Positions 14,585 through 16,375 of a stretch of 64,000 bases of DNA are shown one piece after another. Each line of letters begins with the position of its first letter. The stretch's first letter is position 1. The notes below the pieces were generated by a model that worked only from the letters and a program-made list of their open reading frames with translations, did not search any database and had not been told where the DNA came from. The position numbers and the translations under genes are program-made. Origin of the DNA: Cupriavidus oxalaticus (GTDB lineage Bacteria; Pseudomonadota; Gammaproteobacteria; Burkholderiales; Burkholderiaceae); NCBI RefSeq assembly GCF_004768545.1, contig NZ_CP038634.1, positions 124,001 through 188,000 on the forward strand. The letters are read 5' to 3'.

Positions 14585-14709
14585 ACCGAAAAGCAAAATT
14601 GCTCCCGCTCGTGCAGTCGCGTTCAGGGCTCAGGCGCTATGCGGTTTCACCATAATGCGCCCCGCGATTGTGTCCAGCCGGTTTTGAAAGGTCGCAGCGC
14701 CCGCTAAAT

Positions 14710-16236
14710 TCAAATGTCGGTGCGAGCGTGCTTTTTGTGCGGGGTTGAATGCTTTTGTGGGGTGGTAGTGGGGCGGTGGTGCTGGCCTGACGTGACTGAG
14801 TTCAGCTCAGGGTGGAGCGGTGGATTCACCGTGGGCACAGTTAAAAGGTCCGCGTTCTGTGTAAGCGGCGCGGCCGTCATCGCGCGCTCCAGATCGAGCC
14901 GGTTGATCAGCCGCTGCCGCTTGACGTTCAGCGGCGCGCGATGGAGCCGAGCTGGTTCGCCCTGCAGCGTGCGCGACGGCCCCGCCTGCTGGCGACTGTC
15001 GCGCTGCGCCTGCACCTGCGCCGTGATGGCCAGCACGTGCCCCAGCCGCTTGTGCTCGACGATCGCGCCCTGGTCGATCTCGCCGAGCCGGTCATAGGTG
15101 GTGTAGGGCAGGGCAGTGCCATCGGCCCACAGCTCGATCCTGCCGTCCGGGTACTCGGCGACCTCGACATAGCGGTGGATCAGCCGCCGGTGCTCGGGCC
15201 GGTCCTCGAGCAGGTACATCACCTTGTCGTACTGCAAGGTGAGGCTCCGGGACACCTTGCGCCATTCGCGCCAGCTGAAGATCCGTGCCAGGTCCTCGTC
15301 GCCACGCAGCGGCCGGTGCGCGTCGAAGTCGCTGCGCGGCACCTTGGCAAAGCGCGTGTTGAAGTCGGCCATGAACCGCGGCGCAAAGGCGTTGGCGGCG
15401 TCCATGCTGGAGATTCCGCGCAGGCGCAGCTCCTTCACCAGCCGGTCCTGCAGCGTGCCGTTCATCCGCTCGACCCGGCCCTTGGCCGGGCTCGAATTGG
15501 CGCACAGGCTATCGATATTGAGCTCGAACAGCGCGCGCCCGAACTGGGTGTAGCCGCGCCCTTCGGCATTGTCCCTGGCGTTGACGCGGAAGATGCCGGC
15601 CTTGTCCGAATAGAACGCCATCGGCTTGCCGTGGCGCTCAATGTAGGCGCGCGTGGCGGTGAAATACGCTGGCGTCGATTCGGTTGGCACGAACCGCAGT
15701 TGCATCAGCTGGCCGGTGGCGTCATCGACGTAGACCAGCAGCGTGCACGCCGGCGCCCGGTCCTCGAACCAGGCGTGGTCGCTGCCGTCGATCTGCACCA
15801 GCTCGCCCAGGCAGGCGCGGCGGTTGCGCGGCTGGTGCACCTTGGGCGGGCGCAGCTTGCGCGGGATCCAGAAGCCGGCGTCGATCATGATCCGGCGCAC
15901 GCAGGCCTTGGAAATCTCGATGCCGTGGCGCTCGCGCAGCTTCTCGCAGGCCAGGGTCGGGCCGAAGTCGGCGTAGCTGTCGCGGATCAGGCCGCGAATC
16001 CGCGACTCCAGACCGGGCGGCAACTGGCGGTTGCTCGGGCGATCGCGTTTGCGCGAGACCAGGCCGCTTGGCCCGTCCTCCTGAAGCCGCAAGACCAGCC
16101 GCCTAACGTGCCGAGCACTGATGCCAAGCCGCTCCGCGGCGCGCCAACGCGCCAAATGGCCATCGGCCACTGCCTGGATCACCTTCATGCGGTCAACTTC
16201 GCGCATGCTCATGGTCACCAATCCTTGGTCGTGCAT
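14710..16236 (-). CDS. ISNCY/IS1202-family transposase
   Basis: A 508-residue DDE transposase. An N-terminal helix-turn-helix region (M-R-E-V-D-R-M-K-V-I-Q, then G-I-S-A-R-H-V-R-R-L) precedes a rve-type integrase core. The first Asp lies in Q-I-D-G-S-D-H-A-W-F, a second in Y-V-D-D-A-T-G-Q-L, followed by F-Y-S-D-K-A-G-I and the Glu region K-G-R-V-E-R-M-N-G-T-L-Q. The ATG at 16236 follows a strong GGGAGG site, and an alternative ATG at 16212 is possible. The C-terminal ~90 residues are basic. No frameshift or stop is seen, so the enzyme may be active. Confidence 0.93.
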   Translation of the reverse strand: MHDQGLVTMSMREVDRMKVIQAVADGHLARWRAAERLGISARHVRRLVLRLQEDGPSGLVSRKRDRPSNRQLPPGLESRIRGLIRDSYADFGPTLACEKLRERHGIEISKACVRRIMIDAGFWIPRKLRPPKVHQPRNRRACLGELVQIDGSDHAWFEDRAPACTLLVYVDDATGQLMQLRFVPTESTPAYFTATRAYIERHGKPMAFYSDKAGIFRVNARDNAEGRGYTQFGRALFELNIDSLCANSSPAKGRVERMNGTLQDRLVKELRLRGISSMDAANAFAPRFMADFNTRFAKVPRSDFDAHRPLRGDEDLARIFSWREWRKVSRSLTLQYDKVMYLLEDRPEHRRLIHRYVEVAEYPDGRIELWADGTALPYTTYDRLGEIDQGAIVEHKRLGHVLAITAQVQAQRDSRQQAGPSRTLQGEPARLHRAPLNVKRQRLINRLDLERAMTAAPLTQNADLLTVPTVNPPLHPELNSVTSGQHHRPTTTPQKHSTPHKKHARTDI

Positions 16237-16292
16237 GGCTGCCTCCCGTAGCATCCACCGCCGAACGGTGAGAATACGGGGCCGCAGCATGA

Positions 16293-16338
16293 GGTGACAT
16301 CTCTAATCATCCCAAAGGTGACATTACTAATAATCCCC
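16293..16338. repeat. Tandem 24-bp-spaced repeats at the IS right end
   Basis: Two copies of GGTGACAT followed by a CTAATNATCCC-like tail (16293-16313 and 16317-16338), with a 24-bp period. They lie between the transposase start and the element end, so they probably bind transposase and overlap its promoter region. Confidence 0.6.
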
Positions 16339-16347
16339 AACAGATTG

Positions 16348-16375
16348 GTTTCGCATAATAAACCTTATGTTAAAT
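16348..16375 (+). other. dif-like XerC/XerD recombination site
   Basis: A 28-bp site: XerC-type arm GTTTCGCATAA (16348-16358; 9 of 11 match the E. coli arm), 6-bp centre TAAACC (16359-16364) and XerD-type arm TTATGTTAAAT (16365-16375; identical to the E. coli arm). XerCD recombination here resolves replicon dimers at division under FtsK control. The centre differs from the usual chromosomal TGTATA, which could mean a secondary chromosome or megaplasmid. KOPS-like octamers across the window all point to it. Confidence 0.82.

Follow-up and report, generated by a model that had tools for sequence, protein, structure and literature searches.

The window, a 64-kb stretch of the Cupriavidus oxalaticus genome, carries an insertion sequence (IS) of the IS1202 family lying directly beside a predicted dif site, the kind of site at which joined bacterial chromosomes are resolved, with the following features:

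14666..14670, + strand: distal GATTG copy of the 5-bp target duplication (direct reading and script)
14671..16342, - strand: IS1202-family element of 1672 bp with TGT...ACA ends, its transposase-5' (left) end at 16342, on the dif side
14710..16290, - strand: transposase ORF encoding a 526-aa DDE enzyme (NCBIfam NF033594, 511.5 bits, cut-off 250)
16343..16347, + strand: proximal GATTG, the 5-bp spacer between the IS and the XerC arm
16348..16358, + strand: predicted dif XerC arm, GTTTCGCATAA
16359..16364, + strand: predicted dif central spacer, TAAACC
16365..16375, + strand: predicted dif XerD arm, TTATGTTAAAT

An earlier note on this DNA had described an IS1202-type element inserted with a 5-bp duplication against an undamaged dif, and direct reading together with a script bears out the arrangement: GATTG stands before 14671 and after 16342, its second copy (16343-16347) abuts the arm that begins at 16348, and both arms and the central spacer of the 28-bp site are whole at 16348-16375. 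One boundary has to be moved, as position 16375, where that note ended the feature, belongs to dif, and the IS itself stops at 16342. A re-check by script gave a target duplication (TSD) of exactly 5 bp, with base six differing between the flanks. The IS1202-type identity also stands, based on the NF033594 score, the D/D/E residues with a Q at E+7, and the TGT/ACA ends. Imperfect terminal inverted repeats of about 22-29 bp are typical of the family; those of the window IS align without gaps at 13 of the first 25 bases, and are thus weaker than the at least 15 matches listed for the family by Harmer et al. 2023 (PMC10132070, cited here and below from its available sections). Like the ISAjo2 group of that work, the window IS combines the Q at E+7, TGT...ACA ends, a TSD of 5 bp (within the 3-5 bp of the group), a left end 5 bp from the XerC arm in a fixed orientation and a location at a chromosomal dif; it differs in its host, Cupriavidus, and in the greater length of both the IS and the transposase. 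On these sequence characters the element is a member of the IS1202 family of the short-TSD (ISAjo2/ISAba32) kind.

The predicted catalytic residues of the window transposase, D168, D229 and E274, along with Q281, are all invariant in 20 aligned relatives, and Q at E+7 is the mark of the IS1202 family (Harmer et al. 2023, PMC10132070). The NCBIfam model that it matches is assigned to ISNCY, Pfam recognizes helix-turn-helix (HTH) parts only, and a sequence search of solved structures (PDB) with the transposase returned nothing significant. The AlphaFold2 model (mean pLDDT 69.8) begins with predicted HTH bundles, continues with an RNase H-type core and a beta barrel, and closes with C-terminal helices, these domain names being assigned by reading its secondary structure. 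Within the 1672-bp IS there is no second long ORF on the transposase strand, and the remaining ORFs overlap the transposase.

We then considered the dif site and its genomic setting. A search for the 28-mer that tolerated up to 3 mismatches gave a single match in the window and 0 in 100 shuffles. The source genome (7.97 Mb in 7 contigs, with the window on contig C1) has four exact matches to the dif pattern, one each on contigs C1, C2, C3 and C6; allowing up to 3 mismatches adds four sites, and the reversed control likewise gives four. A 28-bp XerC-spacer-XerD architecture, present once per contig on four contigs, is what is expected of a chromosomal dif, which we predict this site to be. The cumulative GC skew of the 64-kb window peaks at 14-18 kb and then drops, a small signal that fits the expectation near a terminus.

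The earlier note had proposed that all copies of the IS be checked for their distance from Xer sites. All four dif sites found in the source genome are occupied by such an IS, and the five copies that reach 1.1 kb or more are all located at them, one as the second member of a stack. Relative to the window copy, one of the C6 copies is 100% identical, those on C2 and C3 are 88% identical, and the other C6 copy is 72% identical; the genome also contains three IS fragments of about 61 bp, and six transposase protein matches were counted in it, five of them among the matches listed. The order on C6, proceeding outward, is dif, CCGCT, the 72% IS, CCGCT, the 100% IS, CCGCT.

A search of 60 Cupriavidus genomes with the dif pattern at up to 1 mismatch recovered 137 sites in 51 genomes, against 0 for the reversed control. 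Among the 150 transposase matches listed in these genomes, 89 are on contigs with a found dif (61 within 10 kb of it, 28 further away) and 61 on contigs without one. The 61 near matches listed (up to 10 kb), which involve 43 dif sites, are without exception on the XerC side and have their transposase 5' ends turned to dif. We studied the regions around 56 of the 62 dif sites found in 19 genomes of at most 10 contigs, a set that leaves out G017, G029 and G046 (one dif each, also at most 10 contigs). Transposase homology is present on the XerC side of 34 of the 56 and on the XerD side of one, a comparison of unequal lengths (12.5 kb and 6 kb) in which small fragments were counted. For the IS ends we used 55 sites, L174 having been removed because it repeats L173. 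In 39 of these the distance between the XerC edge and a TGT is 5 bp, in three it is 6 bp and in two 4 bp, amounting to 44 of 55 sites at 4-6 bp, 42 of which have the inner end motif too; at the mirrored XerD offset of 5 a TGT is found in none of the 55. In 11 of the 55 there is no TGT at 4-7 bp, one of them being masked and two resembling decayed ends by eye, and some Cupriavidus dif sites retain only the left IS end as a scar. Placement by chance was rejected, given the empty shuffles and the contrast between 39/55 and 0/55 at the mirrored offset.

The constancy of side and orientation across the 61 listed near matches, together with the offset of 4-6 bp in 44 of 55 sites, supports the chromosomal dif-targeting with exact spacing suggested in the earlier note, and with it a predicted XerC-side homing of the window IS and its relatives at a fixed offset and orientation. 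The flank of dif is likely a neutral spot for insertions, and one could accordingly picture random insertion with selection sparing only the dif-side copies; however, selection would not yield one exact offset, one side and one orientation, and we regard such an origin as extremely improbable.

Stacked elements were observed at 6 of the 55 sites, where the dif-adjacent 5-mer recurs just beyond the distal end of the first IS and leads into the left end of another IS; two of the six have this 5-mer once more after the second IS. Most simply, an insertion may each time re-create its own target, with the newest IS next to dif. Alternatively, stacks could arise by insertion beside an existing IS end or by tandem duplication, with no re-use of dif, and a precedent of sorts exists in the identical pairs sharing a 15-16-bp duplication in a related element that is not at dif (see SKA34 below). 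Nonetheless, the 5-mer repeated in the stacks is the dif-adjacent one, and the 11 stacked pairs that align over 0.8 kb or more (Cupriavidus and the wider family) are 70-91% identical and hence are not duplications of one element, leaving this second origin unlikely. Target immunity was entertained as a conclusion and dropped: both immunity and the loss of identical tandems by recombination predict divergent stacks, and we therefore make no claim of immunity. Transposase matches of equal bit score occur on different contigs in at least 12 genomes, the equality of sequence having been checked in the source genome only.

The empty site GCG-GATTG-GTTTCGC that the earlier note had asked for was not found: the window dif has two readable orthologs, in G010 and G038, and each of them holds another IS of the same type, with the spacers ACTTG and GATT. 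An ortholog of the C6 dif without an IS is present in plasmid pENH92 of C. necator NH9, in which long blocks on both sides are 93-95% identical to the C6 replicon; the latter has other inserted DNA beside its stack, and pENH92 is thus not a scar-precise empty site. These sites also bear on the proposition that no targeting occurs at all, the IS and dif travelling jointly as Xer-mobile modules and the pair being inherited as a unit. Such a process would account for a 9-mer, comprising the outer XerC arm and the spacer, that is shared by 4 of 63 within-genome pairs as against 3 of 1422 between genomes, the pairs not being independent. However, central spacers and flanks differ from replicon to replicon, the IS are bordered by duplications, the same dif region exists without an IS in pENH92, and divergent IS sit at one site in stacks. 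The duplications at independent insertions rule out joint travel as the main cause, and as an overall explanation we consider it very improbable. The within-genome pairs noted to have the 9-mer in common are L164/L165, L172/L175, L176/L180 and L188/L189; replicon pairs of this kind differ in central spacer and XerD side, and the sharing could stem from gene conversion between IS copies or from Xer exchange. As a separate observation, the left IS ends in the dif flanks L157 and L175 appear mosaic by eye, their outer and inner parts being of different types, which suggests recombination between stacked IS.

Beyond Cupriavidus, transposase matches were detected in 161 of 299 genomes of a family sample and 51 of 398 of a phylum sample. 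The pattern TGTYGATAA-N6-TTATGTYAAAT was recovered from 67 of the 298 family genomes searched, the control giving one match. In other genera of the family, 20 of the 21 near copies listed are canonical, the exception (G626:C34) being on the wrong side or in the wrong orientation; here 98 transposase matches were listed, and dif sites were considered in genomes with such listed matches. The Burkholderia dif has been given as AATGTCGATAA-N6-TTATGTCAAAT (Carnoy and Roten, PMC2731167, available sections), and Harmer et al. 2023 (PMC10132070) describe the targets of ISBcen27 as loosely dif-like. As these targets match the listed Burkholderia form, they are most simply taken as probable real dif sites of their hosts. 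Similarly, a AAATAGCATAA-N6-TTATGGAACTT form found beside relatives in another class suggests that the targets of ISRel10 may likewise be real dif sites of the host. Among relatives on plasmids, L335 and L336 (Serratia) have the site at 5 bp, and for L331 to L334 there is no clean site within 260 bp. As an aside, at least 5000 plasmid records contain such transposases, Klebsiella leading with 2212 among the matches listed.

In 42 distinct transposases the spacing is 5 in 32, 6 in eight and 4 in two, beside nine inner forms of the XerC arm; as these were chosen for an exact site, they speak to spacing rather than to how frequently a site is present. This variety matters for the proposal that the transposase reads the dif DNA itself, i.e. 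the XerC arm and perhaps the spacer, with no need for XerC. At position -3 of the XerC arm, A is present in 32 of the 39 occupied sites and in 6 of the 16 remaining ones, and the arm type tracks the transposase tree, two changes being enough to account for it, both of which are in keeping with such direct reading. On the other hand, the nine inner arm forms are met at the same spacing, and the window's own lineage is found at both CGCATAA and CCGATAA arms. Since the hosts and the transposases are themselves related, this variety is not decisive, and we hold recognition of the DNA by itself to be possible but doubtful. Arm-type switching as proof that XerC is read was set aside, the tree requiring a minimum of only two changes. 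The tree entry L256 was disregarded, as the ORF there belongs to a second, reversed IS and not to the dif-adjacent one.

Relatives from Shewanella, which share 50% identity with the window transposase, extend the distance rule. The IS end is 15 bp from the XerC arm in five copies (L243, L244, L348, L354 and L347), and a 15-bp duplication was verified in L243, L348 and L354; L338, a 72.5% identical relative, is 5 bp from the arm with a 5-bp duplication. The ten Shewanella copies with readable upstream sequence thus comprise five at 15 bp, one at 5 bp and four without an Xer-like site, a count that excludes two further G847 copies retaining the N-terminus, while L337 stops at a contig end. Several of the Shewanella XerC arms are poor, and L244 requires a 7-bp spacer; a scan of 53,294 positions gave 7 sites at up to 4 mismatches of 18, a total that counts the real ones. 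In the tree the 15-bp copies and L337 form a clade (support 98) whose sister is L338 (99), and this assemblage is nested within a group of other dif-targeting elements, separate from the 511-aa type. A more distant contrast is provided by an element of Photobacterium sp. SKA34 (L246-L254, L261), 48% identical and present in 12 copies, none of which has a dif-like site by eye, indicating that related transposases can lack targeting. It has duplications of 15-16 bp in 5 of 8 copies tested, and its tandem pairs (L249, L254) are identical with the same 15-16-bp duplication between members.

Harmer et al. 2023 (PMC10132070) did not find targets of the longer-TSD IS1202 members, and the TSD classes of the family have been noted to be about one helical turn apart (PMC10045372, available sections). 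The 5- and 15-bp distances equal the respective TSD lengths, and one joint therefore seems fixed at the XerC-arm edge with the other one TSD out. What our sequence comparison adds to the helical-turn observation is that the predicted XerC-side joint stays while the far joint moves.

In light of the above, we consider it probable that the window IS is a short-TSD IS1202 element that homes to Xer sites through a joint at the XerC edge and docking, most likely on XerC. On the sequence evidence the transposase-5' end faces the XerC arm, with one strand joint at the outer edge of the 11-bp arm and the second one TSD length out, mostly 4-6 bp, or 15 bp in the Shewanella clade. The duplicated bases end up between the IS and dif, which stays whole; since the XerC arm keeps these bases as its neighbours, each insertion would restore the target and let later elements insert at the same place, displacing older ones outward. 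The IS has no helper gene, and we posit that its transposase alone docks at the XerC end of dif, with bound XerC as the most likely contact; this would place one active site at the arm edge, the second acting further out on the same helical face. Contact with bound XerC has been proposed by Harmer et al. 2023 (PMC10132070), a proposal with which our data agree.

With somewhat less confidence, though still leaning in its favour, we propose that the XerC edge serves as a molecular ruler for the whole group, with joints about 5 or 15 bp apart, and that dif is a self-renewing landing pad with the youngest IS next to it. If so, target choice and TSD length would be separate traits, such that long-TSD members can hunt dif as in Shewanella, and the XerC flank of each dif would be a layered record of successive IS. 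Circular replicons in these hosts carry dif and depend on its integrity; an IS that settles next to it without harming it would have a safe, shared and self-renewing home, with passage between chromosome, chromid and plasmid possible. As the XerC-side offset is constant, the idea of targeting by a single protein can be put to a direct test, and the contrast between 5 and 15 bp amounts to a natural experiment on the way a transposase positions its two joints. IS ends of this type also flag dif sites missed by consensus searches.

Tn7 (TnsB with TnsD) and the Tn5053-type res hunters also use a fixed landmark, a DDE transposase and TGT ends. The window IS shares these traits; it is distinguished from Tn7-like systems by its single transposase gene and the lack of a target-selector gene in the IS, and is not a member. 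The ISAba32 subgroup, an IS1202 subclass, is said to have been described by Siguier, Rousseau, Cornet and Chandler in 2023 (Plasmid 127:102696) as targeting XerCD recombination sites, reportedly with duplications of 5-6 bp. Harmer, Pong and Hall 2023 (PMC10132070) reported targeting of dif/pdif at 5 bp from the XerC arm in the same orientation, in agreement with the earlier note's statement that part of the family targets Xer sites. With dif homing by such elements published in 2023, the window element adds one more case to a group already described. The available sections of PMC10132070 make no mention of tandem elements, immunity or Cupriavidus, and do not describe near-full occupancy, stacks or 15-bp relatives. 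Our literature searches brought up no report of stacks, a Cupriavidus survey or a 15-bp class, some of which Siguier et al. 2023 may hold; the Cupriavidus occupancy survey, the tandem stacks, the Burkholderia dif match and the 15-bp distance rule were accordingly not found in print and appear to be new here.

Two further kinds of structure were noticed around Cupriavidus dif sites. Inverted dif-like pairs 1.1-1.3 kb apart occur at G043:C2 (1458843/1459918), G043:C3 (728784/730049), G055:C2 (1483190/1484435) and G010:C171 (25647/26869); the partner sites mostly have the spacer GAACCG, and the pairs perhaps represent an Xer-mobile module. Separately, a giant element is situated inside the left end of a dif-adjacent IS at G018:C1:2496850-2628892 (L300-L306), and also in G043:C3, G043:C5 and G055:C2 (about 132, 129, 134 and 82 kb), with further ends in G010 and G021:C16. 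Its ends read A[AG]TCCTCTAACG, with 5-bp duplications read by eye, and the end pattern is present in 6 of 60 Cupriavidus genomes against 0 in the control. Pfam and NCBIfam gave nothing useful on its proteins, among which a 653-aa protein is weakly TnsB-like (E 0.01) and a 434-aa protein weakly TniQ-like (E 6e-4). Where a dif was found on the contig, the element has six dif-side ends, every one of them on the XerC side, with distances of 42-115 bp for five and 721 bp for the sixth, and it is possibly a second, Tn7-like hunter of the dif region.
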